DNA from: Streptomyces sp. V3I8
GTDB lineage: Bacteria; Actinomycetota; Actinomycetes; Streptomycetales; Streptomycetaceae
Assembly: GCF_030817535.1 (NCBI RefSeq)
Contig: NZ_JAUSZL010000002.1
Coordinates: forward strand, 5,890,001 to 5,954,000
DNA: 64,000 nt
Direction of reading: 5' to 3'
Shown: one piece after another, positions 24,879 to 38,009 of the stretch
How positions within the stretch are numbered: the stretch's first letter is position 1
Layout: each line of letters opens with the position of its first letter
Translations under genes and position numbers: made by a program
Notes under the pieces: generated by a model
What the model was told of the DNA's origin: nothing
The model's database searches: none
What the model saw: the letters and a program-made list of their open reading frames with translations, nothing else

Positions 24879-25916
24879 TCAGCCGGCCGCCGGACTGAGG
24901 ACCAGCGGTTCGATCCTGCCCTCCAGCATGGCGCCCAGACCGAGGACCGCGCACACGTCGGGCCGTTCGGCGATGTGCACCGGCATGCCCGTCGCCTGCC
25001 GCAGCATCTGGTCGAGGCCCGGCAGCAGGGCGCTGCCGCCGACCATCATGATCCCGCGGTCGGCGAGGTCGGCCACCAGGTCCGGCGGGCAGACCCGCAG
25101 CACCTTGCCGATGCCGTCGAGCACCGCCGTCAGCGGGGTCTGGATGGCGTCGCGCACGGCGGCCGTGTCGACCTGCACGGAGCGGGCCAGGCCGGTGGCC
25201 ACGTCCCTGCCGTGGATCTCCGTGGAGGCGGGGCCCTGCGAGGTGAGACCGTTCCCGGAGAGGGCCAGCTGCAGGGGGCGGACGGACTGCGAGGGCAGCA
25301 TCAGCTCGTGGTGGTGGCGCAGGTGCTGGACGATCGCGTGGTCGATGGCCTCGCCGCCCACGGGGATGCGCTCGGCCGTGACGATCGAGCCGAGCGACAG
25401 CACGGCGACCTGGGTCGCGGCGGCCCCGCACACCATGACCATGGTGGCCTCGGGGCGCTCCACGGGAAGCCCGCAGCCGACACCGGCGGCGATGAGCGTG
25501 TCGACCAGCTCGACGCGCCGCGCGCCGAGACCCACGAGCGTCTCTGTGGTCGCCCGCTGGGCCAGCGGGTCGGAGCCGTGCGGGGTGCAGGCGGCGGCCC
25601 GCAGCAGCGGCTTGCGGCGCAGGGTGCGGCGGACCTTGTCGCCGAGGAGCTGACGCAGCATGCGCTGGGCCATCTCGATGTCGACGACCGTGCCGCCGGA
25701 GACGGGGCGTACGACGCGGATGTAGTCGGGGGTGCGGCCCGTCATCTTCTCGGCGAACTCACCGACCGCGATCAGTGCGCCGGTCCTGGTGTTCACGGCG
25801 GCGACGCTGGGCTGGTCGACGATCAGCCCGGCCCCCTTCACGTAGACGCGGGTGCGTGCCGCGCCCAGGTCGACGGCGAAGTGGCAGCGGCGCAACTGCT
25901 CCAGACTGGCGGTCAT
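24879..25916 (-). CDS. mbl: MreB-like actin-family protein Mbl
   Basis: A 345-residue actin-fold protein. FAVDLGAARTRVYVKG is the phosphate-1 loop, VDIEMAQRMLRQL and MVMVCGAAATQVAVLSLG the phosphate-2 region, and IMMVGGSALLPGLDQML the adenosine motif. The ATG at 25916 has a GGGAGG box seven bases upstream, and the longer frame (to 26072) runs back into the palindrome. It diverges from core MreB. The S. coelicolor Mbl gene, as I recall (SCO2451), contributes to spore wall synthesis and has the same neighbour, a very large kinase-like gene. Confidence 0.85.
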   Translation of the reverse strand: MTASLEQLRRCHFAVDLGAARTRVYVKGAGLIVDQPSVAAVNTRTGALIAVGEFAEKMTGRTPDYIRVVRPVSGGTVVDIEMAQRMLRQLLGDKVRRTLRRKPLLRAAACTPHGSDPLAQRATTETLVGLGARRVELVDTLIAAGVGCGLPVERPEATMVMVCGAAATQVAVLSLGSIVTAERIPVGGEAIDHAIVQHLRHHHELMLPSQSVRPLQLALSGNGLTSQGPASTEIHGRDVATGLARSVQVDTAAVRDAIQTPLTAVLDGIGKVLRVCPPDLVADLADRGIMMVGGSALLPGLDQMLRQATGMPVHIAERPDVCAVLGLGAMLEGRIEPLVLSPAAG

Positions 25917-26027
25917 GGCGGATCCTCCCGAGAGCGCGGACCTGGGACTCCACCGGACGGCGGTCCTCCCTACGCATGGTGCGGGACCTGACGGGGCGTC
26001 GCCTTTCGGGGTGGGCCGGGCGGGGTG

Positions 26028-26083
26028 CCGCTGGACGGGTGGTCTTCCGTGCCGGCCGGCACGGAAGACCACCCGTCCAGCGG
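26028..26083 (-). terminator. Perfect 56-bp palindrome
   Basis: The two 28-base arms meet with no spacer at 26055/26056 (centre GTGCCGGCCGGCAC). It starts eight bases downstream of the stop codon of the 1672-residue gene, on the minus strand, and ends 112 bases before the mbl start, so it most likely terminates the upstream operon and separates it from mbl. A protein-binding or recombination role is possible. Confidence 0.85.
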
Positions 26084-26090
26084 GAGCGGC

Positions 26091-29000
26091 TCAGGTGTTG
26101 GGCAGGGCCTGGAGCAGCGGTGCCCAGGACGCCGTGGTCAGTTCGCAGCCCGCGCGGACCAGGCGCTGCCGGTGCGGCTCGGAGCGGGTGTAGCCGAGGA
26201 AGCGCAGCCCGAGGGCCTTCGCCGCGGTCAGCTCGGCGACCGACGAGCCGACCATGACGGCGTCCTTCGGTGTCGCCCCGAGGTGCTCCAGGGCGCGCAG
26301 GAGGCAGTCGGGGTCCGGCATCAGCCGGGTCAGGTCGTTCGCGCGGCCGTGCACACCGCCGGTGACCAGGCCGGTCAGCCTGCCGTGTGCCTGGAGGTAC
26401 TTCCAGACGGCGCTCGGCGCGTTGTCCGCGACGACGGCCGTGCGCCGCCCGAGCGAGTCGAGCGTCGTGATCAGGGCGTCCGAGAACGGCGTGGCCGCGG
26501 CGGCCGACACCGCCCGCTCCTCGATCCGGTTGAGCCGCCGCCGCAGATCGCCGCCCAGCGGATGGCCGGCGAAGGCCCGCAGCAGGTCGAGGGGGTTGAC
26601 GCGTCCCTCCAGCGGTGGCGCGGGCGCGCCCTCCGCGGCCGCCTGCGCGGTCAGCGGCTCGCCGCTCAGCGCGTCCTGCGGGTTCCGCAGCTCGGCGAGC
26701 AGCGCGGTGAGTTCCCGGGTGGCCTGCCGCTCGGCGTCACCCGTGTAGAGGCGGACGAGCGGCCCGTCGAAGCCGATCAGGACGCAGGGGGCCCGCACCA
26801 GGAAGGTGGCCGACCCGTCGGGGGGCGGGGCGGTCGTACGGCGTATCCGGGCCGTCTGACGGGACAGGAGGGCGGGCTGCAGATCATGCTGCGCGGTGGG
26901 CGCGTGGTCGGACAGTCGGACGGGTTGCGGTTCCGCCCCGGGCGTGAGGCGTACCGAGCACGCCACCGAGAGGCCCGGCACCGGCCAGCCGGGCGCCCCG
27001 TCGCGCAGCACGTCGTGCACCGCGTGCTGCGCCGCTCCCGCCCGCTGGAGCGGATGGCGGCGGGTGACGCGGCGCGCCTCCCGCAGCAGGTGGTCGAGGA
27101 GCCGCGCGGAGACCCCGGTCGTCCCGCCGCGTACGAACTCCACCGGGTCGTCGACGTGCCAGGACAGCTCGGCGGACGCGGTGAACGTCCCGCCGCGCGA
27201 GGCCGGCAGGGAGAGCTCGTGGGAGGCCCGGTGCGTGGTGAGGTCGACCTCGTGGTACGTGATGCGGGACCCCGAAGCGGGCGTATCGGCGAACGCCTCG
27301 GGGTCGAAGAGGGCCGGCGGCCCGTCGGAGGGCTGGACGACCACCGCGGTACGCCCGGGTTCGGGGAGGCGGATCGATCCGGCGCGGCGCGTGCTGAACG
27401 GGCCGCGCACCAGGTCGCGCGGCACGGACCCGGGCTCGGGGGCGGGCACCCGGTCCGGGATCTCCAGCCGGCGGTACCAGGCGAGGGGCGGCCCGTCGCC
27501 CGGCCCGGTGTGCAGGGGCCGGAAGCCGGCCGGGCCGGCCGGCAGGTCGCCGGCCGTCAGTTCCTCGTACAGGACCGGGGAGAGGACGACCGCGATGTCG
27601 GACCGTTCCAGGGCGGCCGGGAGGGGGACGCGGGGAGGGCGCGCGGTGTGCCAGAACGTCAGCCGGACCCTGGGCGGGTCCGGCGTCTCCAGGAGGATGT
27701 CGGGCAGATCGCGCAGCGTCGCGTTCAGCACGCCCAGGACGGACGTCCCCGGCGCCGTGAACACGAGGTAGCCGTCGTCGACGGCGTTCATGTCGTACTG
27801 GTCGGAGGTCAGGCCGCCCAGCGAGAGCAGCCAGGTGAGGGTGTGGGAGAGGGTGCTGTGGGCGCCGCGGTGGTCACCGGGGTCCGTGCACTCCATGGTG
27901 ATGGCGGGACGGTTGTCGTCCGGGACGGCGCGCAGCTCGCGGTAGAGCTGCAGCAGGGTGGGGTCCGGCTCGTTGAACCGCCGGTCCTGGAGCGCCTCGT
28001 AGGTCTCGTACGACTCGACGGCCTCGGCGGTACGGCCCTGGGCCTTGAGGGCGAGGATGTGCAGGCGCCGGAAGTCCTCGCGCTCGGGGTGCGAGCGGAG
28101 CAGCTCGCCGAGATCGGTGGCGGCCCGCTCGAACCGGCCGCTCTCCAGGTCGAGTTCGGCGCGGGTGGCGCAGAGGGTGAGGCGCAGGGCGCGCAGCCGG
28201 GTGCGGGTCGCCTGGGCGGCGGGGCCCGGAACGCCGTCGAGGGGGTCGCCGTACCAGAGGTCGAGCGCGCCCTGGACGGCCTCGCGGGCCGCTGCCGGGC
28301 TGCCGTCCTCGCGGTACGCCTCGGCCTTCGCGACGAGCTCCTTGCACTGCTCCAGGTCCACGGTGCGCAGGCCCGCGTGCAGGGCGTACCCGTACGCGGT
28401 GGTGGCGAGCAGCCCGGGGCCCAGGGTGCGGCGCAGGGCGGAGGCGTACGTGGCCAGGAGGCGTTCGGGGTGCCGCGGAGGGCGGTCGCCCCACAGCCCC
28501 TCGGTCAGCTCGTCGTACGTCACGGGCCGGCCGTTGCGCAGGAGGAGCAGGCAGAGCAGGGCCTGCTCCTCGGGCGAGTGGACGGGCGAGTGGACGGATG
28601 AGGGGACGGACGAGGGGACGGACGAGGGGACGGGGGAAGGAGCGGGTGAGGGGACGGGCCGTCGGGCGGACGGCCGGGGGAGGCCGCCCTGCCGGACGCG
28701 TACGGGGCCGAGCAGGCGGTAGTGGGGCCGGTCCGCCGCGACCGCCTCGGCCATCGCGCCGAAGGCGGGGCTCAGGCACAGGTCCTTGCCGCGGCGCCGG
28801 GTCCGCGGGTCCGGTGAGAGCAGGCAGGTGAGGGCGTCGGTGATGCGTTCCCGGTGCTCGGGCGCGATGCCGGGCAGGCTGTCGGAGGTCCCGCCTCCGG
28901 CCAGTTCCCGGAGCATGAGCCCGAGAGCGTGGAGGTCCTTGAGGTCCGCCGGCTCGTTCGGGCCCCGGTCCTGGTCCTGGTCCCGGTCCTGGTCCCGGTC

Positions 29001-31109
29001 CAGCGGGAAGCCGCTGATCCTGACGGTTCCGTCCGCGCCCAGGAGGAGGTGGCCGGGTGCGAGGTGCCCGTGCGACACGCCGCGCGTGTGCAGCGCCTCA
29101 AGACCTTGCGCGGCCTGGTGGACCAGAGGCGCCAGCAGGGCGAAGGGCAGCCGGAAACCGCCCTCGGCCGTGAGGTCGGCCAGGCTGACGCCCTCCACGA
29201 ACTCCGTGACCAGGTACGCCGTCCGCTCCTGCGTGCCGTAGTCGTGCACGGCGATCACGTTCGGGTGCCGCACGCCCGCGAGGGCCCGTGCGGCCTCCAG
29301 GAACCCCTGCCGCCGTTCCGGATCGACGCGGTACCGGTGCACCGCGACGGTCCGGCCGGTCCGGGTGTCCTCGGCCCGCATCAGGTGCCCGCCCCGGCCC
29401 AGGCGCCGTGACAGGCGGTACCTGCCGAGCACGAGTCCGGTGCCGGCGCGCTCCGGCGGGGTTCCGCCCAGCCGTCGTACGCTCTCCTCGCGCACCGCGG
29501 CGAACGGTTCGCCGTCGGCCGTGGCGTTCCCGGGCCCCGGCACCGAGACGCGGAACTCACCGGCGGCCACTCCGGCGCGTACGTCGATCAACGCTCCGAT
29601 CCTGGAAAGGAGTTCGGAGGTCCTGCCATATGCGGTGCGGGGCAGCGTGCGCAGCAGCAGCTCCCGTACGCCGGGCCGGAAGGCGTACGAGCCGGCCGCA
29701 CCCGGGACCGCGGTCAGCGCGCCGCTGAGGATCACCTCGGCCAGGTGCTGCGGCCGGGGGTTCTTCTCGATCGCCGCGTGGACGAGCCGCATCACCGGCA
29801 ACTCCGCCGGCCCCACCGCCAGATGACCGGCCAGCCGGAAGGCCTCGGGGGAGGCGAGCGAGCGGAACCGCAGCAGGAGCTCCTCGGGGGAGAGCCGCTC
29901 GACGTCGCCGCGGCCCCGCTCGTCGACCGGCGCGACCGGCGGGGCGGCGCCCAGCAGGCCCACCGCGCCCGGCAGCCGCCCGCCGCCCGCCACCAGCGAC
30001 GACCAGTTCGCCAGCCAGGCCGGCGAGGCCTCGAGCACCGGGAGCGGGAGCGGGACCGGCAGCATGCCGTGCGGCCTGCTGCCGGGCGCGCCGAGTGCGT
30101 CGAGCGCGTACGAGTCCACGGTGTACGCCGCGTTGGGCGCCGCGGGGCCCGGTGCGGCGATCCGGGCCGTGGTGGCCGGCAGGGCGGTGGTGCGCCACAG
30201 GCGTTCCGGCAGCGGCTGGACCAGGGCGACCGGCATGCTCGCCGACCAGCGGCGCAGGGTGGCGTACCAGCGGGTGCCCGCCGGGCCGTCCCGCCACTGC
30301 GGGCCCATGCAGTCGCTGATCAGGAGCGTGACCGTGCGGCCGTCGGCGAACGACTCCTGCGAGCCGGGACGGCGGACCGTGCCGTCGGTCTCCAGGCGGT
30401 GCAGTTCCACCGTGCGGAAGACGCCCGACTGGGCCAGGACCGCGTGCAGTTCGCGGACGAGCGGACGCCAGACGGGCATGGTCGGGCCGGTGTCGTGCAC
30501 GAGGTGGAGCGTCAGCCAGCGCTCCCTCTGCGGGCGCAGCACGGGCAGCCAGGACCGGGGGGCCGCGCCCAGGCGGGCGATGCGCTGTGCTGTCGCCGCC
30601 TCGTCCAGTTCCCGGCCGACGGGAGCGGGGACGCTCCGCTTCAGGGGGCGCAGGGCGCGCTGGAGCGCGAGGGGGTGGGGGAGCATCGGCGGGACCGGGG
30701 CCAGGAGGGAGGTGTAGGTGCCTGCGCCTTTGCCTGTACCTGTGCCTGTGTCTTTGCCGGTGGTGGGTTTCCGTCCGGCGGGGAGGCGGAGGGGGACGCG
30801 GGTGTCCGTCGGTGCGGGGGGCGGGTCGGCGGGGCCGGTCGGATCGACGGAGTCGCGGGTGCCGGGGGCGCGGAGGGTGCCGGGGCCGGGCTGTGGGCCG
30901 GCTACGGGCCGGTGGGGGCTCGTCGCCGGGTTCCCCGCGTCCTCGGGAACGGTGGGGTGGCCCGGGTCCGTACGGGGGGCGGGCGCCGGCAAGTGCCGGG
31001 ACAGCCAGAGGAGTTCGGCCAGTTCCACCGGGGTCGGGGGGCGGCCGTCGCCGGCCCGGACCAGCAGTTCGGCCAGGTGGGCGACGCCCGTGGAGGCGTC
31101 AGAACTCAT
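26091..31109 (-). CDS. Giant multidomain protein: vWA-like, pseudokinase, BTAD, cyclase-like, degenerate HAD
   Basis: A 1672-residue cytosolic protein, related to SAV_2336-type N-terminal proteins. Order by residue: N-terminal helical region 1-40; disordered Pro/Gly linker; vWA-like Rossmann region about 197-300 (LTLHLVHDTGPTM at the MIDAS position, VTLLISDCMG); helical region; Ser/Thr kinase fold about 561-780; winged helix plus BTAD of the AfsR/SARP type about 797-1065; a nucleotidyl-cyclase-like region about 1068-1215 (VDDGYLVFTAPG); a band-7-like region about 1280-1390; HAD fold about 1440-1672. The kinase lacks every catalytic residue (VAIK Lys is His, HRD is HGH, DFG is SGF) and the HAD motifs are GFDGPLV and MVGSSVAEL, without the usual Asp. 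It overlaps the MoxR gene by 11 bases. Probably the signalling or effector platform of a MoxR-VMAP system. Confidence 0.85.
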   Translation of the reverse strand: MSSDASTGVAHLAELLVRAGDGRPPTPVELAELLWLSRHLPAPAPRTDPGHPTVPEDAGNPATSPHRPVAGPQPGPGTLRAPGTRDSVDPTGPADPPPAPTDTRVPLRLPAGRKPTTGKDTGTGTGKGAGTYTSLLAPVPPMLPHPLALQRALRPLKRSVPAPVGRELDEAATAQRIARLGAAPRSWLPVLRPQRERWLTLHLVHDTGPTMPVWRPLVRELHAVLAQSGVFRTVELHRLETDGTVRRPGSQESFADGRTVTLLISDCMGPQWRDGPAGTRWYATLRRWSASMPVALVQPLPERLWRTTALPATTARIAAPGPAAPNAAYTVDSYALDALGAPGSRPHGMLPVPLPLPVLEASPAWLANWSSLVAGGGRLPGAVGLLGAAPPVAPVDERGRGDVERLSPEELLLRFRSLASPEAFRLAGHLAVGPAELPVMRLVHAAIEKNPRPQHLAEVILSGALTAVPGAAGSYAFRPGVRELLLRTLPRTAYGRTSELLSRIGALIDVRAGVAAGEFRVSVPGPGNATADGEPFAAVREESVRRLGGTPPERAGTGLVLGRYRLSRRLGRGGHLMRAEDTRTGRTVAVHRYRVDPERRQGFLEAARALAGVRHPNVIAVHDYGTQERTAYLVTEFVEGVSLADLTAEGGFRLPFALLAPLVHQAAQGLEALHTRGVSHGHLAPGHLLLGADGTVRISGFPLDRDQDRDQDQDRGPNEPADLKDLHALGLMLRELAGGGTSDSLPGIAPEHRERITDALTCLLSPDPRTRRRGKDLCLSPAFGAMAEAVAADRPHYRLLGPVRVRQGGLPRPSARRPVPSPAPSPVPSSVPSSVPSSVHSPVHSPEEQALLCLLLLRNGRPVTYDELTEGLWGDRPPRHPERLLATYASALRRTLGPGLLATTAYGYALHAGLRTVDLEQCKELVAKAEAYREDGSPAAAREAVQGALDLWYGDPLDGVPGPAAQATRTRLRALRLTLCATRAELDLESGRFERAATDLGELLRSHPEREDFRRLHILALKAQGRTAEAVESYETYEALQDRRFNEPDPTLLQLYRELRAVPDDNRPAITMECTDPGDHRGAHSTLSHTLTWLLSLGGLTSDQYDMNAVDDGYLVFTAPGTSVLGVLNATLRDLPDILLETPDPPRVRLTFWHTARPPRVPLPAALERSDIAVVLSPVLYEELTAGDLPAGPAGFRPLHTGPGDGPPLAWYRRLEIPDRVPAPEPGSVPRDLVRGPFSTRRAGSIRLPEPGRTAVVVQPSDGPPALFDPEAFADTPASGSRITYHEVDLTTHRASHELSLPASRGGTFTASAELSWHVDDPVEFVRGGTTGVSARLLDHLLREARRVTRRHPLQRAGAAQHAVHDVLRDGAPGWPVPGLSVACSVRLTPGAEPQPVRLSDHAPTAQHDLQPALLSRQTARIRRTTAPPPDGSATFLVRAPCVLIGFDGPLVRLYTGDAERQATRELTALLAELRNPQDALSGEPLTAQAAAEGAPAPPLEGRVNPLDLLRAFAGHPLGGDLRRRLNRIEERAVSAAAATPFSDALITTLDSLGRRTAVVADNAPSAVWKYLQAHGRLTGLVTGGVHGRANDLTRLMPDPDCLLRALEHLGATPKDAVMVGSSVAELTAAKALGLRFLGYTRSEPHRQRLVRAGCELTTASWAPLLQALPNT

Positions 31110-32211
31110 CCGGTTCCTCTCCCGTGCGGCTCAGGTACGGCATCAGCTGCTCGGCCAGTTCGTCGCGCGACGACGCGTCGATGCCCGCCACTCCCGTGAG
31201 GTAGATCGCGTTGAGCAACTGGTCCGTGGCGAGCTCGCCCCCGGTTCCGCGGTCGAGGAACCGGGCGATCAACTCGCGGGCGTACGCGTCCGGTTCGCCC
31301 AGGTGGGCACGGACGATGTGCTCCAGGTGGTCGGCGCGCGGCTGGTGCAGTTCGAGGCGGACGCAGCGCCGGAGGAAGGCGGGCGGGAACTCCCGTTCCC
31401 CGTTGCTGGTGAGGACCACGAAGGGGAAGGCCCGGCAGCGGACCCGGCCGCGCGCGACCTCGACCCGTTCGTCCGTGCCGTCGATCATGACCTCGGCGGC
31501 CGGGGTGTGCCGGGCCGAACGGACCAGCTCGGGGATCTCGTACTGGCCCTCCTCCAGGATGTTGAGCAGGTCGTTCGGCAGATCCAGGTCGCTCTTGTCG
31601 ATCTCGTCGATCAGCAGTGCGCGCGGGCGGCCGTACGGGAGGAGGGCCGTGCCGAGTGGGCCGAGCCGCAGGTGGTCCTGCAGCTCGCTGTCGGCGGCGA
31701 GTCCGCTGCCGGTCGGGAGACCGTGGCCGGTCGGGAGACCGTGGCCGGTCGGGAGACCGTGGCCGGGTGAGGGCTTGGGATCCGGCCGGGTCTCGCCGTC
31801 GGGGCGGACGTCGCGCGCGGCCGCGTACAGGCGGGACAGCGGGTCGTACTGGTACAGCCCGTCGTGCAGGGTGGTGCGGCTCGTGATGTTCCAGCGCAGG
31901 ACCGGGCCCAGCCGCAGCTCCCGCGCGACCGCGTACGCCAGGCTCGACTTGCCGCTGCCCGGCGGTCCCGTCACGAGGAGGGGCCGGCGCAGGTAGAGGG
32001 CTGCGTTGACGAGCTGCACGGCGCGGTCCGTGGCGCGGTAGGTGCGGGCGCGGTGCCGGCGGTCCGGGGACGTGGCCGAGGTGTCGTCGGCCTCGGCGGG
32101 CGTCGCCAGCTCCGGGCCGCCGTCGAAGTCGCGCCAGGGCGGTGGCGCGGGCAGCTCGGCGATGCCGTCGTGGGGCTCGCTCGAACCCGTGTAGACGGGC
32201 CACAGGGACAT
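31099..32211 (-). CDS. MoxR-type AAA+ ATPase
   Basis: A 370-residue AAA+ protein. Walker A is GPPGSGKS (82-89), Walker B ALLIDEIDKS (198-207), sensor 1 VVLTSNGEREFPPAFLRRC with the arginine finger. An insert of about 45 residues between alpha/beta elements contains three GHGLPT units from an 18-bp tandem repeat. MoxR ATPases act as chaperones that remodel partner proteins carrying vWA domains. The vWA-like partner here is the downstream giant protein, whose start overlaps this gene, and the upstream protease-VMAP gene ends 72 bases before its start. Confidence 0.93.
   Translation of the reverse strand: MSLWPVYTGSSEPHDGIAELPAPPPWRDFDGGPELATPAEADDTSATSPDRRHRARTYRATDRAVQLVNAALYLRRPLLVTGPPGSGKSSLAYAVARELRLGPVLRWNITSRTTLHDGLYQYDPLSRLYAAARDVRPDGETRPDPKPSPGHGLPTGHGLPTGHGLPTGSGLAADSELQDHLRLGPLGTALLPYGRPRALLIDEIDKSDLDLPNDLLNILEEGQYEIPELVRSARHTPAAEVMIDGTDERVEVARGRVRCRAFPFVVLTSNGEREFPPAFLRRCVRLELHQPRADHLEHIVRAHLGEPDAYARELIARFLDRGTGGELATDQLLNAIYLTGVAGIDASSRDELAEQLMPYLSRTGEEPDEF
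31711..31764. repeat. Three exact 18-bp tandem repeats inside the MoxR gene
   Basis: GGTCGGGAGACCGTGGCC is repeated at 31711, 31729 and 31747 without mismatch. It is in frame and encodes GHGLPT units of the variable insert in the ATPase. Confidence 0.97.
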
Positions 32212-32283
32212 GGTCTCTCCGAACGTGTTCCGGTGTGCGGTCCGGCGGCTTCGGTACGGCCCCGGTAGGGTCGGGGCGGTGGT

Positions 32284-34167
32284 TCAGCCGACCGGGTTGT
32301 GCAGGTAACCGACGGGGTCAGGCAGGCATTCGGGGTCCTCCCACAGCAGAGCCAGGTCGTACGCCCAGTGCGGTTCCGTGGCGTCCGAGGCGTACGCCGA
32401 CTCGCGCAACTCGTGTACGTGATAAGGAAGTTCGCGGGCCGACAGGCCCGCGAGGTGTTCGGTCAGCCGGTCCAGGAACGCCGAACCCCGGCAGTCCTGC
32501 GACGCCCCGCACCGGTGCTCGCCCCGGCAGCCGGTGCGCGGCCACAGCATCACCGGCACCGCCGCGTTCAGGCTCGCCTGGAACAGCCGCCGCACACCGT
32601 CCGCGCGCGGCGGCGTACCGAAGCCCACCATGTCGGCGTCGCGGCGCAGCCCGATGGTCAGTTTCACCTGGTCCTGGCCGACGGACCAGCAGTCGATGCG
32701 GTGCAGCCGCGGCGCGGGCCGCGCGTCCAGGTACTGCCACTTCTGGCGCAGCTTGTGCTGCAGGCCGCCGCTGCGCCGCCGTTCCAGGTCCATCACGACG
32801 AGCGGGGCGAAGGAGCCGAGCGGGCTGTCGTCGTCGGCGCTGCGCTTCCAGTGCGCCACGTCCGCGTTGAGCCAGCGCCTCGGCAGCACGAAGGCGAGCA
32901 GCTCCCGGGCTCCGGGTTCGAGCTCGTGGTACGCCTCGTCGATCCGCTCCAGCGCGTAGGGGCGTACGCGCTCGACGGGGAGGCGGCGGGAGCCCACCAC
33001 GCGCCGGTGCCCGTTGTTGTACGCGGAGACCTCGACGAGGAAGTGGTGGTCGCCGGACCCGCTCTGGGCGATCTCCACGAGGATGGGGGACCAGGCGGCG
33101 GCCCGGTCCTGTGGTGCCCCGTGCCGGACCGCGGCTGTGGTGGCGGCCGCGTTCGTGGCTGCGGTCGCGGTCGCGGTCGCGGACATGGAGGTGGAGGCGG
33201 CTGTGGTCGTGGCCGGTGCCATGGGCCAGGCGCGCAGGGCCGTGCGCATGGGGCGGTCGTCGACGAAGTCGGCGAGGCGCTGGGTGAAGCGGGTGGCGGC
33301 GGTGGGGTCCGGGACCTCGGAGAGGAGGTACCAGGCCGCGTCCCAGAGAGAGGTGAAGCCGTGCGGGAGCGGCGGGCCGAGAGGGCCCACCGCGTCGGAG
33401 TACAGCCGCTCCGGGCTGTACCCGGGGGTGGGCCGGTCGCGGAGGGTGCCCGGCCGCGCCCCGGGTGGCCGGGGGTCGCGTTGTCCCGGTTCTTCCGGCC
33501 GCTCCGGTTGTTCCAGCCGCTCCAGCAGGTGTCTGAGACGTTCCTTCTGGTGCTGGGTGTGGCCGGGGGTGGGGATCAGGTCCGCCAGGCGGGGCCAGTA
33601 GCGGGCCATCACCCGGGCGGGCAGCATGCGGCCGTTGCGGATCTCGGGGCTGCGGGCGGCGGCCGAGACCATGCCGACGACCTGCCCGGTGTCCGCGAGG
33701 GCCACCGCGGCGCCGCTGAAGCCCGGCACGAGCGGCTGGCCGTGCGCGGCCCACGCCTCCAGCTGGACCCACTCGCCCGCGATCAACTGGTCGGCCGTCG
33801 CCCGGTACTCGGCGAGCGTCCCCTCGTCGTACCGCTTCGGGAAGCCGTACGCGAGGAGCCTTCGCGGGGGGTCGCCGTAGGCGTCGCCGGGTGCCGCGAA
33901 CTCCGCGGGCTTCATCGGTACCGGCCGGTCCAGCTCCAGTACGGCCAGATCCCCGGGGTCGCTCTCGCGGCCGTCCCAGCCGCCGTGCGCGACCACCCGG
34001 GCGGGGACCTCCTCGTAGCCGCCGTGCGCGAAGGACACCGCGACCGTCTCGGTGTCACCGCGCGCGACGACGTGGGCGCAGGTCAGGACGTGCTGCTCGG
34101 TGACGAGGAAACCGGCGCCGGTGTCCCGTCCGCAGCTGATTCTCGCGTGCCAGGAAGCGCTGGTCAT
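32284..34167 (-). CDS. Trypsin-like serine protease fused to a VMAP-C-like domain
   Basis: A 627-residue protein. The N-terminal S1-type protease has triad H32 (LTCAHVV), D73 (GDLAVLEL) and S151 (VPGFSGAAV), with no signal peptide, so it would act in the cytoplasm. A charged Pro-rich linker, a helical segment (LPHGFTSLWDAAWYLL), and a Thr/Ala low-complexity stretch near residues 325-360 follow. The C-terminal 260 residues (EVSAYNNGHRRVVGSRRLP.., then WAYDLALLWEDPECLPD) resemble the VMAP-C domain of vWA-MoxR-associated proteins. The ATG overlaps the stop of the upstream small gene as ATGA. Likely the protease effector or regulator of a conflict system. Confidence 0.85.
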   Translation of the reverse strand: MTSASWHARISCGRDTGAGFLVTEQHVLTCAHVVARGDTETVAVSFAHGGYEEVPARVVAHGGWDGRESDPGDLAVLELDRPVPMKPAEFAAPGDAYGDPPRRLLAYGFPKRYDEGTLAEYRATADQLIAGEWVQLEAWAAHGQPLVPGFSGAAVALADTGQVVGMVSAAARSPEIRNGRMLPARVMARYWPRLADLIPTPGHTQHQKERLRHLLERLEQPERPEEPGQRDPRPPGARPGTLRDRPTPGYSPERLYSDAVGPLGPPLPHGFTSLWDAAWYLLSEVPDPTAATRFTQRLADFVDDRPMRTALRAWPMAPATTTAASTSMSATATATAATNAAATTAAVRHGAPQDRAAAWSPILVEIAQSGSGDHHFLVEVSAYNNGHRRVVGSRRLPVERVRPYALERIDEAYHELEPGARELLAFVLPRRWLNADVAHWKRSADDDSPLGSFAPLVVMDLERRRSGGLQHKLRQKWQYLDARPAPRLHRIDCWSVGQDQVKLTIGLRRDADMVGFGTPPRADGVRRLFQASLNAAVPVMLWPRTGCRGEHRCGASQDCRGSAFLDRLTEHLAGLSARELPYHVHELRESAYASDATEPHWAYDLALLWEDPECLPDPVGYLHNPVG

Positions 34168-34547
34168 GAGCGCGGGGCGCCTCCCGGCCGGGCGCCGGGC
34201 GACTGCTCCGGCGACCAGGACAGCTTGACCAGGAGATGGCCCTCGACCGCGCTCTTGGCGATCAGCGCCCCCGCCTCCGCGGTGAGTTTCACCCCGAACT
34301 CGATCTCCACGGAGTCGGGCCGCAGCGAGCCGTCGCGGAAGACCCGCAGCGCGGACTCGGCGGCCGCCCGTACTCCCTCCAGGGAACCCTCGAACGTGCG
34401 GGCCGCCGGGACCGTGCCGTCCGCGCGTGCCACCAGGCGGGAGCCCGACCCGTCCTCGGCCCCCTCGACGACGATCACCGCCCCGTCGTCGGTCTTGAAC
34501 TCCACCAGTCCGTCCATGCTGTCGGCGAAACCCCCGTAGTCCGTCAC
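34164..34547 (-). CDS. Trypsin-co-occurring domain (trypco1, CU044_2847-like) protein
   Basis: A 127-residue protein with no signal peptide. It is a compact alpha/beta domain: GLVEFKTDDGAVIVVEG and a central SLEGVRAAAESALRVFRD helix, then VEIEFGVKLTAEAGALIAKS, which is the conserved end of trypco1 proteins, followed by HLLVKLSW. The family occurs beside trypsin-like proteases in predicted conflict operons and may bind or restrain the protease. GTG start at 34547 after an AAGGTG box; its stop is fused ATGA to the protease gene. It is the first gene of the four-gene operon. Confidence 0.82.
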   Translation of the reverse strand: MTDYGGFADSMDGLVEFKTDDGAVIVVEGAEDGSGSRLVARADGTVPAARTFEGSLEGVRAAAESALRVFRDGSLRPDSVEIEFGVKLTAEAGALIAKSAVEGHLLVKLSWSPEQSPGARPGGAPRS

Positions 34548-34879: not shown

Positions 34880-36451
34880 CTAGGAGGGGGACGAGGGCCG
34901 CACCGGCCGCACGATGCCGCGCACGACACCCAGTTCCACCAGGTCCTGCGGCCGGATGCGGAGTTGGTCGGCCGTGTTCCGCGTCTCCTCCGGGGGCCGT
35001 TTGAGGATGGCGGCCGCCAGTTCGGGCGCGATGACCGAGAAGTAACTGTCCGGGGTGGCCCACGTGTTGTCCGGAGCGGCCAGGGCCAGCGCGCCGCCCG
35101 AGCCGCCCTCCCCGATGAGCAGCGTGGTGACGGGCGTCCGCGCCGCCGCTACCGCTCCGAACAGGTCCGCGATCGCCGCGCCCGCGCCCTGCCGCTCCGC
35201 CTCCGCGTCGTTGGCGGCGCCCGGGGTGTCCACCAGGGTCAGGACGGGGATACGGAGCCGGTCCGCGAGCCGGACCAGCCGGGCGGCGGTGCGGTAGCCG
35301 GCGGGGCGCGTGGCGGTGCCGGTCTGGGCGGCGTAGGCGACGGTGCGGCCGTCCCGCGCCCGGGTGCCGACACCGCAGAGCATGCCCTCGTCGGTGCCGC
35401 CGCAGCGGTCACCGCTGATCGCCGCGCGGTGATCGAAGTAGGCGTCCAGGTAGGCCTGCGCGCGCGGCCGTCGTGGCGACCGTGCCTGCCGTACGGCCTC
35501 CCAGCCGGTGGCGGGCAACTCCGTGACCGGCGGTCCCGTATCCGGCGGTCCTGTGCCCGGCAGCCCCGTATCCGGCAGCCCCGTATCCGACAGTCCGGTA
35601 TCCGGCAGCTCCGTATCCGGCAGTCCGGTATCCGGCAGCTCCGTATCCGGCAGTCCCGTATCCGGCAGTCCCGTATCCGGCAGTCCGGTATCCGGTAGTC
35701 CGGTGTCGCCCAGGGCCGGGGGAGGCGGGGCGGGCTCGGTCGACGGGTCGCCGAGCAGGCGCAGCCAGCGCGCCAGGGTCCCCGGCAGTTCGCGCTCGGG
35801 CACCACCGCGTCGATCGCTCCCGCCGCCAGCTGCGATTCGGCCGTGTAGGCGGCCGGGTCCGCGTCGGACGGCCGGACCCGGGAGCCCGCGAAGCCCACC
35901 TGCGCACCCGGCAGCGCGAGGATCACGTCGGCACCCGCGCCGAGGGTGGCCCAGCCGCCGCCCGTCGTCGGGTCGCGCAGGACGGCGATCTGGGGGAGGC
36001 GGGCGGCCCGGGTGAGGGCCGACTGCCGTGCCACGCGCTGGAGTTGGACCAGTGCGCGCATGCCCTCCTGCATGCGGCTGCCACCCGTCGCGACGAGGGA
36101 GACGACCGGGAGCCGGTGTTCACGGGCGTACGTGTACGCGGCCTCCAACCGGTCGCCCGTGCGCTCGCCCAGCGAACCGCCGAGGAAGCCGAACTCGAAG
36201 GAGATCAGCACGGCGGTCGTACCGAACCCGGCCGTACCGAACGTGGCCGTACCGCAGACGACGGACTCCTCCTCGCCGGTGCGGTCGGCGGCTCGGGCGC
36301 GCGAGGCGTCGTACCCCTGCCAGGACAGGGGGCCGTCCGGCGCGTACGTGCCCTGGGGGACGGGCAGTTCGGTGAATCCGGTGCTGACGAGACCGATCGC
36401 CTCGCGGGCGGTGAACCGCCGGGAGTCCTCGGCGCGAGAGTCCTCAGCCAT
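34880..36451 (-). CDS. Fused acyl-CoA carboxylase carboxyltransferase (beta-alpha) with LPDTG linker
   Basis: A 523-residue crotonase-fold protein of two halves. The first half resembles AccD without its zinc finger (residues about 1-235; SLVATGGSRMQEGMRAL and RDPTTGGGWATLGAGADVILA), the second AccA (about 335-523; QAYLDAYFD, TLVDTPGAANDAEAE, IGEGGSGGALAL). They are joined by 13 tandem LPDTG-type pentapeptides (LPDTG, LPDTE, LPGTG). It would transfer a carboxyl group to an acyl-CoA, or act on malonate-derived thioesters. ATG at 36451 overlaps the matB stop by eight bases; a GTG at 36463 is in frame. Co-location with matB and a MatC carrier suggests malonyl-unit metabolism. No biotin subunit is nearby. 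Confidence 0.83.
   Translation of the reverse strand: MAEDSRAEDSRRFTAREAIGLVSTGFTELPVPQGTYAPDGPLSWQGYDASRARAADRTGEEESVVCGTATFGTAGFGTTAVLISFEFGFLGGSLGERTGDRLEAAYTYAREHRLPVVSLVATGGSRMQEGMRALVQLQRVARQSALTRAARLPQIAVLRDPTTGGGWATLGAGADVILALPGAQVGFAGSRVRPSDADPAAYTAESQLAAGAIDAVVPERELPGTLARWLRLLGDPSTEPAPPPPALGDTGLPDTGLPDTGLPDTGLPDTELPDTGLPDTELPDTGLSDTGLPDTGLPGTGPPDTGPPVTELPATGWEAVRQARSPRRPRAQAYLDAYFDHRAAISGDRCGGTDEGMLCGVGTRARDGRTVAYAAQTGTATRPAGYRTAARLVRLADRLRIPVLTLVDTPGAANDAEAERQGAGAAIADLFGAVAAARTPVTTLLIGEGGSGGALALAAPDNTWATPDSYFSVIAPELAAAILKRPPEETRNTADQLRIRPQDLVELGVVRGIVRPVRPSSPS
35512..35712. repeat. 15-bp tandem repeat array encoding LPDTG units
   Basis: About 13 copies of a unit close to CAGTCCCGTATCCGG lie head to tail inside the carboxyltransferase gene, in frame. 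Variation is mostly at the third codon position and in the final residue (G or E). Confidence 0.95.
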
Positions 36452-38009
36452 GGGGCAGCGCACGCTTCATGATCTTGCCCATGTCGTTGCGGGGCAGGGC
36501 GTCGAGGTAGTGGACGACCCGGGGCCGCTTGTGGGGCGCGAGACGGCCGGCCACGTGGTCCGCCAACTCCGCGAGCCCAGGCGGGGACTTGGCGTCGGCG
36601 GGCACGATCCACGCCACGATCCGCTCGCCGAGGTCGGTGTCCGGCTCACCCGTGACCGCGGCCTCCCGCACGGCCGGATGTTCCAGGAGGGCGTTCTCGA
36701 TCTCGCCCGCCCCGATCTTGTAGCCGCCGCTCTTGATCAGGTCGGTGGCCTTGCGGCCGACGATCCGTACGTACCCGTCGGGGTCGCGCACCGCCATGTC
36801 ACCGGTGCGGAACCAGCCGTCCCCGGTGAAGGCCGCCGCCGTCGCGTCGGGCCGGTTCAGGTACTCGGTGAAGAGGTTCGGGCCCCGGACCTGGATCTCG
36901 CCGACGGTCTCCCCGTCGTACGCCGTCAGGACCGTCGTGCCGTCCTCCTCGGTCAGCCGCAGTTCGACGCCCGGCAGCGGTACGCCGACCGTGCCCGCGC
37001 GGGGCTCGCCGTCCGCGCGGACGCTGGTGTTCATCAGCGTCTCCGTCATCCCGTACCGCTCGACGACCCGGCGCCCCGTCGCCTCCGCGATCCGCTCGTG
37101 GTCGTGCACGGGCAGGGCCGCCGAACCCGACACGAGGAGCCGCGCCCGCGCCAGCGCCGCGGCGAGCGCCGGGTCGCCGGGCAGGGCCTCCGCGATCCGG
37201 TGGTACATCGTCGGGACCCCGAACAGCATCGTCGCGCCGCCGCTCAGCTCCCGGGTCACGCCCGCCGTGTCGAAGCGCCCGAGGTGCGTCACGGATCCGC
37301 CGCGGCGCAGCGGGCCGAGGATGCCCAGGATCAGTCCGTGCACGTGGAAGAGGGGCAGGCCGTGCACGAGGACGTCGTCGCCGGTCCACCGCCAGGCGTC
37401 CGCGAGGGCGTCCAGGGTGGTGGCGACGGCCCGGCGGGGGATGACGGCGCCCTTCGGGGGGCCGGTGGTGCCGGAGGTGTAGACGACGAGGGCCGGCAGT
37501 TCGGACACCTCGGACGGCTCGGACACCTCGGACGGTACGGACAGCTCCGCGGAGGGGTCGGACGCGCCCGGGGCGAGGGGCGCCGCCGGTTCCGTGGCAC
37601 GTACGTCGACGTCGACCCGCGTCAAGGATGCCAGGACGTCGGGAAGCCGGTCCCCGGGTGCCGCGAGCACCAGTGCCGGCGCGCTGTCCGCCACGATGTG
37701 CCCCAGTTCGCCGCCGCCCGACTTCGGGTTGAGCGGAACGGCGGGGACGCCCGCCAGCAGCGCGGCGACCACGGCGACGGCGGTCTCCAGGGTGGGCGTG
37801 GCCCAGACGGCGACCCGACCCCCTTCCCCGGCCCGGCCCGTATCCCTCGTCCGGCCCGTCTCCGCGATCCGGGCGGCCAGGGGGGCGGCGGTCGCCGCGA
37901 GTTCGCCGTAGGTCAGGGAGCGGTCGCCGAAGCGCAGGGCCGGCCGGTGCGCGGCGGTGCCGTCCGGGTCCGCCAGTGCCGCGGTCAGGGCCGGGAAGAG
38001 AGAGGACAC
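36444..38009 (-). CDS. matB: Malonyl-CoA synthetase (ANL superfamily)
   Basis: A 521-residue acyl-adenylate-forming enzyme. VVYTSGTTGPPKGAVIPRR is the P-loop (A3), RYGMTETLMNTS the A5 motif, GWFRTGDMAVRDPDGYVRIVGR the A7/A8 hinge, and RNDMGKIMKR supplies the catalytic A10 Lys. It makes malonyl- or methylmalonyl-CoA from the free diacid, ATP and CoA, in the cytoplasm. GTG start at 38009 with AAGGAG nine bases upstream. Its neighbour upstream is a MatC-type carrier. The S. coelicolor orthologue, as I recall, is the characterised MatB (SCO2444). Confidence 0.92.
   Translation of the reverse strand: MSSLFPALTAALADPDGTAAHRPALRFGDRSLTYGELAATAAPLAARIAETGRTRDTGRAGEGGRVAVWATPTLETAVAVVAALLAGVPAVPLNPKSGGGELGHIVADSAPALVLAAPGDRLPDVLASLTRVDVDVRATEPAAPLAPGASDPSAELSVPSEVSEPSEVSELPALVVYTSGTTGPPKGAVIPRRAVATTLDALADAWRWTGDDVLVHGLPLFHVHGLILGILGPLRRGGSVTHLGRFDTAGVTRELSGGATMLFGVPTMYHRIAEALPGDPALAAALARARLLVSGSAALPVHDHERIAEATGRRVVERYGMTETLMNTSVRADGEPRAGTVGVPLPGVELRLTEEDGTTVLTAYDGETVGEIQVRGPNLFTEYLNRPDATAAAFTGDGWFRTGDMAVRDPDGYVRIVGRKATDLIKSGGYKIGAGEIENALLEHPAVREAAVTGEPDTDLGERIVAWIVPADAKSPPGLAELADHVAGRLAPHKRPRVVHYLDALPRNDMGKIMKRALPHG

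Follow-up and report, generated by a model that had tools for sequence, protein, structure and literature searches.

A four-gene cassette in the genome of Streptomyces sp. V3I8 is, judged by its gene order, its Trypco1 neighbour and the motifs of its MoxR ATPase, a VMAP ternary system as set out in passages of PMC7159879, and sequence comparison indicates that it comes and goes among close relatives at one fixed chromosomal site. To the published account of such systems, the present analysis adds the fixed site beside mbl and its occupancy, the distribution of live and dead residues, the turnover of the tail of the vWA component and a possible matching of cassette parts.

The cassette and its relation to known systems

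All positions refer to the window, the whole stretch of 64,000 nucleotides that was analysed (Table 1). A preliminary description, made from the letters alone, had listed four leftward genes for trypco1, trypsin-VMAP, MoxR and a vWA component, and all of them are present with the coordinates, order, overlaps and gap that it gave, the MoxR and trypsin-VMAP genes being separated by 72 bases. Domain searches back its assignments of Trypco1, trypsin protease, VMAP-C and MoxR with Pfam/NCBIfam E-values far below chance (147.5 bits for VMAP-C PF20028 against a cut-off of 27), as well as those of a pseudokinase and a BTAD domain in the vWA chain. The start of trypco1 is probably ATG 34517 rather than GTG 34547, since in L033, a close relative, the frame is not kept ahead of this ATG. 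In a profile search, the window genome (9.3 Mb) gave one VMAP-C match and one SAV_2336 match.

Table 1. Cassette features and flanking genes in the window
Feature	Position	Strand	Evidence and remarks
Flanking mbl/mreB-like gene	24879..26072	(-)	MreB_Mbl E 1.5e-107; site boundary, ORF as listed
vWA component (platform), 1672 aa	26091..31109	(-)	ORF
Pseudo-HAD domain, aa 1433-1672, nucleophile Asp -> Gly	26094..26813	(-)	HAD E 3.3e-9
Putative cyclase-like + Band-7-like region, aa 1076-1432	26814..27884	(-)	Labels inferred
SARP-like wHTH (aa 845-898) + BTAD (aa 917-1060)	27930..28577	(-)	PF00486 E 7.8e-7; PF03704 E 8.9e-29
Pseudokinase, ~aa 558-790	28740..29438	(-)	PF07714/PF00069, kinase E 8.4e-15
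SAV_2336 N-terminal region, aa 28-513, vWA-like fold with D206 + D266	29571..31028	(-)	NF041121 SAV_2336_NTERM E 1.2e-122
MoxR / vWA-component gene overlap, 11 bases	31099..31109	(-)	Open reading frames
MoxR AAA+ ATPase, 370 aa, N-terminal WPVYTG + PPWRDF	31099..32211	(-)	AAA_5 E 1.6e-8
Trypsin-VMAP gene, 627 aa	32284..34167	(-)	ORF + Pfam
VMAP-C domain, aa 375-612	32332..33045	(-)	PF20028 E 7.1e-43
Trypsin-like protease domain, aa 1-195, H32/D73/S151	33583..34167	(-)	Trypsin_2 E 5.2e-14
ATGA stop/start overlap, trypco1 / trypsin-VMAP	34164..34167	(-)	Open reading frames
trypco1 gene	34164..34517	(-)	PF19493 Trypco1 E 1.4e-23; ATG 34517 preferred, listed ORF from GTG 34547
Flanking accA-like carboxyltransferase gene	34880..36463	(-)	ACCA E 3.1e-49; other site boundary

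Comparisons were based on 42 orthologs, namely the window, the 32 loci with a full cassette within the 80 loci of best Mbl identity, and 9 further loci, the ORF starts being those of the longest open frames, uncurated. The gene order with MoxR and protease, whose conservation the preliminary description had left to be checked, is kept among the orthologs at the mbl site. The 4-base overlap between trypco1 and trypsin-VMAP occurs in all 37 orthologs with both ORFs extracted, and the 11-base overlap between MoxR and vWA genes in 37 of 42, but in none of 10 paralogous cassettes from other loci of the genus. A trypco1 ORF was extracted in 37 of the 42 orthologs, L058 and L061 have a tblastn match as well, and no tblastn match was obtained in L019, L026 and L098.

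The VMAP systems, listed in 716 organisms by Kaur, Burroughs, Iyer and Aravind (2020; PMC7159879), share with the cassette, as far as the relevant passages of that paper go, the strict order VMAP-MoxR-vWA, a Trypco1 (or Trypco2, Trypco1 here) beside trypsin-type VMAP proteins, fast-evolving vWA and VMAP components, and a vWA tail in which kinase and HAD are catalytically dead. The MoxR motifs WxhapG and PsWRxa given there read WPVYTG and PPWRDF here. The class is also marked by a vWA domain with two metal aspartates, for which D206 and D266 of the vWA-like fold are candidates here. In contrast, the N-terminal extension of the vWA component, printed as [D/E]xxx[D/E]xxxa, is here ExxExxW, one residue shorter per step; the printed spacing occurs in none of the 42 orthologs and E[LI]AE[LV][LV]W in 41, L062 being without its N-terminus in the extracted ORF. 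The VMAP-M middle region is represented here only by a VMAP-M0 score of 20.9 bits in the trypsin-VMAP protein, under the cut-off of 25.9. In these passages the same paper also describes kinases that are dead in most cases, a HAD that is probably inactive, and the coupling of kinase with wHTH and of cyclase with Band 7 and HAD. The platform had first been called unusual, a label that does not hold: its domain pairings are those already reported there, and its full layout recurs in 16 of the 42 orthologs, so that a novel architecture was rejected.

More recently, the DGR-diversified MoxR/VMAP loci reported in 2024 (PNAS, PMC10907252) were described, in the parts of that paper drawn on here, with trypsin-VMAP, MoxR, a vWA chain and Trypco1 neighbours, as in this cassette, whereas in those loci the sensors have C-type lectin domains that vary, together with a retroelement; Pfam/NCBIfam scans of the four cassette proteins gave no C-type lectin-type sensor domain. 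AVAST type 1 systems likewise contain a protease with a trypsin-like domain, Avs1b, but the match here is weak (23.6 bits against a cut-off of 1500), and membership in that type was rejected. PADLOC models gave single-domain matches only, the strongest being that of the kinase to MADS 6 and PD-T4-6. Searches of the literature found no experimental test of any VMAP system, the available passages of PMC10910872 and PMC10907252 included, and no paper mentioning SAV_2336 or SCO2447 to SCO2451.

In the case of the tail, a C-terminal HAD fold has to be added to the domains first listed, and the cyclase-like label was confirmed by no tool among Pfam and PDB sequence searches. The stretch named cyclase/Band-7 matched no such Pfam family at E <=0.1 in the 26 members scanned, and its cyclase-like region matched nothing among PDB sequences at E <=10; the whole tail retrieved from them HAD proteins and two chance-level rows, and nothing else. 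The predicted structure of this region has mostly high pLDDT, loops excepted, and its modelled elements run helix, beta hairpin, helix, strand, strand, helix, an order that in our judgement would suit a putative class III cyclase minus its first strand, which falls outside the modelled stretch. A Foldseek search with the vWA region gave no match at E <0.001.

A fixed site with scattered occupancy

The cassette is flanked by matC-matB-accA on one side and by mbl and histidine kinase genes on the other. Occupancy was scored in the 80 loci of best Mbl identity, which are not a random draw, taking as absence the lack of any tblastn match to window segments at 1e-4 (L085 and L094, where no AccA match was seen, were scored via MatB). 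The cassette is present in 44 loci, absent in 28, a remnant in 2 and undecidable in 6. The occupied sites comprise 32 full cassettes and 12 with parts at a contig edge (8 partial, L092, and the tails in L031, L070 and L105, which carry cassette matches though classed as cut off). One occupied locus is L089 from S. violaceoruber NRRL S-981, a strain closely related to S. coelicolor A3(2). Thus, 30 of the 74 decidable loci keep mbl with the cassette absent or reduced to a remnant. On a tree of mbl DNA with 89 rows (the 80 loci, the window and 8 further loci), in which the window lies closest to S. aurantiacus, S. tauricus and S. beigongshangae, presence and absence require 22 changes (starred branches force at least 16 of them), whereas shuffled labels need 24.8 on average, so that occupancy is almost as scattered as by chance; gain and loss are indistinguishable on this tree.

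Nine empty sites compared with occupied relatives keep both flanks at 86-97% identity, the cassette being gone from the interval that runs from the accA end to just ahead of mbl. Between the aligned flanks lie 23 to ~325 bases, with the exception of L067, where ~3.9 kb hold another gene. At six cassette-free sites (L032:5987-9616, L052:6120-9944, L067:6239-9856, L074:6190-9831, L084:6228-9848 and L091:6195-9836) a gene on the opposite strand encodes an apparently secreted product of 1205-1274 aa, by eye a putative subtilisin-like protease. One of the remnants, L033:9176-9979 from S. beigongshangae, close kin of the window, has an open trypco1 and shortened protease and vWA genes: trypco1, approximately the first 70 protease codons and a piece of the vWA gene end are retained. 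As read from its alignment, this is a direct loss, and the truncation looks like one internal deletion. In the other remnant, L057, a trypco1 match alone remains.

Proteins of the SAV_2336 type were found in 170 of 199 Streptomyces genomes (166 over cut-off) and in 45 of 60 genomes of a sample of the order, which makes this component common; the control genome of Caulobacter vibrioides gave a match below cut-off. Nine of 20 genus loci, a selection among the score-sorted matches listed that favours long open frames, have the same cassette beside accA, 8 of these with mbl within the stretch. Eleven SAV_2336 loci (L011, L012, L013, L015, L017, L018, L021, L023, L024, L025 and L027) show no mbl within the sequence retrieved; 10 of them yielded a MoxR ORF, in no case with the 11-base overlap. 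Plasmid-borne relatives amounted to 13 of 72,556 records, none with 80% query coverage, 12 of them matching the trypsin part.

Mbl acts in spore wall synthesis in S. coelicolor, and the fixed position of the cassette beside mbl would also suit a developmental or cell-wall role tied to that gene instead of conflict. Co-divergence, measured as agreement between the pairwise distance matrices of segments, partly tracks the other flank, AccA (0.20-0.62, with the maximum for vWA-N), but agreement with Mbl is nearly nil (<=0.26, though Mbl itself varies little). Given in addition the loci that keep mbl without an intact cassette and the number of occupancy changes on the mbl tree, we consider such a role very unlikely. 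In PMC7159879, Mbl and MreB have no occurrence in the main text, and the passages on VMAP systems were found to make no mention of the mbl site, site occupancy or protease-pseudokinase matching.

Active-looking enzymes, a partly dead tail and possibly matched parts

Among the parts that could be checked, only the protease and the ATPase retain their catalytic residues, and both look active. All 42 orthologs keep protease H32, D73, S151 and G149, MoxR W4, G9, W26 and R27 of the N-terminal motifs, its Walker A K88/S89, Walker B D202/E203, N270, R281 and R282, and vWA D206, G208, T210 and D266. The canonical MIDAS motif carries serines, whereas the vWA motif here is a D-x-G-x-T without them. No readable pseudokinase row has any of the three catalytic residues checked: the catalytic K is missing in all 34, the HRD Asp in all 35, among which L100 is a stray fragment, and the DFG Asp in all 34. 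Gly takes the place of the HAD nucleophile in each of 40 readable rows, of which 39 are credible, L087 being misframed there. The vWA gene of L087 (L087:5446-9324) is apparently frameshifted near its end, with 1292 aa and the HAD match in another frame.

The genome also encodes seemingly intact relatives of the dead tail domains. The nearest HAD (L122:1486-2754) is 39% identical with both Asp kept, and by eye adjoins GntR-like genes; the nearest kinase is 42% identical and has the HRD and DFG motifs; and the nearest SARP-like relative, also 42% identical, lies within a 995-aa open frame. This last relative, together with the wHTH and BTAD matches and with AfsR as the best curated relative of that stretch (162.8 bits, far below the cut-off of 1430), could point to a transcription factor kept on the complex until the protease frees it to control genes such as those of antibiotic production. 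However, a BTAD segment of at least 170 aa occurs in only 20 of the 42 orthologs, L089 has a kinase with no BTAD match, and in those 20 orthologs the recognition-helix stretch is, by eye, poorly conserved, so that we would be surprised if such a release were the function of the cassette.

The tail is the fastest-diverging part of the cassette, and its modules vary between close relatives. Median pairwise identity is 0.91 for Mbl and 0.84 for AccA, falls in the cassette from MoxR (0.77) and trypco1 (0.75) through vWA-N (0.69) and trypsin (0.62) to VMAP-C (0.54), and is 0.37-0.51 in the tail segments; VMAP-M, with statistics from 20 of 42 rows, is among the more divergent segments (0.45), short rows having been excluded by the segment thresholds. 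Median dN/dS, from the 91 pairs whose mbl dS is <0.35 (some segments have fewer pairs), follows Mbl 0.13, AccA 0.19, trypco1 0.22, MoxR 0.25, vWA-N 0.25, VMAP-C 0.37, VMAP-M 0.37 and trypsin 0.41, and reaches in the tail 0.52 for HAD, 0.56 for cyclase/Band7, 0.62 for kinase and 0.63 for BTAD, the HAD and cyclase/Band7 values being somewhat inflated because the seemingly frameshifted tail of L087 was kept in. Every segment median is below 1, and thus no positive selection is shown.

Among the pairs listed, L062 and L083 differ by an mbl dS of 0.23 and a cassette dS of 0.42-0.80 (trypco1 0.21), and L098 and L026 by 0.15 in mbl and 0.68 in cyclase/Band7. L106 lacks a pseudokinase stretch kept by L088 and L099, the remainder differing little. 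Such differences look more like replacement than drift. Sorted by the lengths of their segments, 16 of the 42 orthologs combine kinase, BTAD, cyclase/Band7 and HAD and 26 have other mixtures, and both tails without kinase and tails without HAD persist.

Two pairs of parts, VMAP-C with vWA-N and protease with pseudokinase, may match beyond physical linkage. The agreement of VMAP-C with vWA-N (0.90, the best; partial 0.74 given MoxR and trypsin) exceeds that with its DNA neighbour MoxR (0.78). For the pseudokinase, the highest value is that with the trypsin domain (0.80; 0.63 as a partial value once MoxR and vWA-N are accounted for), which lies in a separate gene with VMAP-C, MoxR and vWA-N in between; the adjacent BTAD (0.78, n=20) and MoxR (0.64) follow. 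With trypsin and one core part controlled, the values of the pseudokinase fall to nearly zero for MoxR (0.03) and vWA-N (0.05), 0.21 being left for vWA-N with all core parts controlled; given MoxR and vWA-N, they are 0.38 for cyclase/Band7 and 0.31 for HAD. These last two co-vary as one block (0.87), with agreements to Mbl of 0.01 and 0.05. The protease-pseudokinase link is 0.62 minus the L014/L016/L020 clade and 0.65 outside type 1; inside a single type it drops to 0.35 (type 1, n=18) or 0.05 (type 4, n=8). Because the rows are related, permutation counts cannot be taken as real probabilities, and the few independent events and the 8 kinase-less orthologs make the protease-pseudokinase matching only a lead.

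Models for the cassette and their bearing on Streptomyces

The preliminary interpretation as a conflict system is upheld in the membership of a VMAP ternary class and not in the novelty of the platform. The favoured reading, which we hold at about even confidence, sees an accessory conflict system of the VMAP ternary class, belonging to a lineage specific to this locus, with the dead-enzyme tail as recognition surface and the protease as the acting part. The core of VMAP-C, MoxR and vWA-N would form an ATP-driven switch that keeps the trypsin domain off, whereas the tail, made in part of dead copies of host regulatory proteins, would be the surface that meets the invader as bait or decoy. Engagement of the tail would let MoxR remodel the complex; in versions that have a pseudokinase, this domain would dock or gate the protease. 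The released protease might then cut the platform's own tail or a protein of either host or invader, and cleavage would contain the infection or kill the cell. Finally, Trypco1 may be an adaptor or an inhibitor of the protease. This bait-tail switch is favoured because a tail that diverges fast, is modular and, wherever this could be checked, dead would be well suited to recognition; family membership, the live/dead contrast, tail divergence, scattered occupancy, matching and the intact-looking relatives in the genome were counted for the conflict reading. On the other hand, the absences could also mean mere dispensability, 8 of the 42 orthologs keep the protease triad without a pseudokinase, and the cassette follows its AccA flank to a degree. 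Moreover, the published models, as given in the passages available, are split on whether the tail is effector or sensor.

The same features can be read in the opposite direction. In the Kaur model, VMAP would sense the invader through its variable middle region, MoxR would remodel the complex, and the VMAP protease would free the tail, whose dead modules diffuse as decoys or dominant negatives. A role of the tail as effector is stated in the relevant passages of PMC7159879. The protease residues kept while the tail is dead and variable, and the place of VMAP-M among the more divergent segments, agree with such a release. However, versions without kinase and without HAD persist, and we know of no tail cleavage site or released fragment, which counts against this model; we regard it as possible but doubtful. 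PMC10907252, in its passages on these loci, proposes the vWA chain as sensor and the N-terminus of VMAP as effector, and the present data give no decisive preference among the bait-tail, Kaur and PMC10907252 models.

A more specific version of the bait-tail switch, which we find unlikely as a whole, would make the platform a multi-bait receptor of dead or degenerate copies of host signalling proteins (pseudokinase, AfsR-like, cyclase-like and HAD), with the pseudokinase as cognate gate of the VMAP protease, freed when an invader attacks the mimic; protease and pseudokinase types would then be inherited as a matched pair despite the VMAP-C, MoxR and vWA-N that lie between them.

In any case, nearly related strains that differ in the occupancy of the one site are matched natural knock-outs, to which one relative with an internal deletion and close relatives differing by one module add further natural variants. 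Ordinary soil Streptomyces thus allow direct tests of the conflict hypothesis and of whether the vWA tail is effector or sensor.
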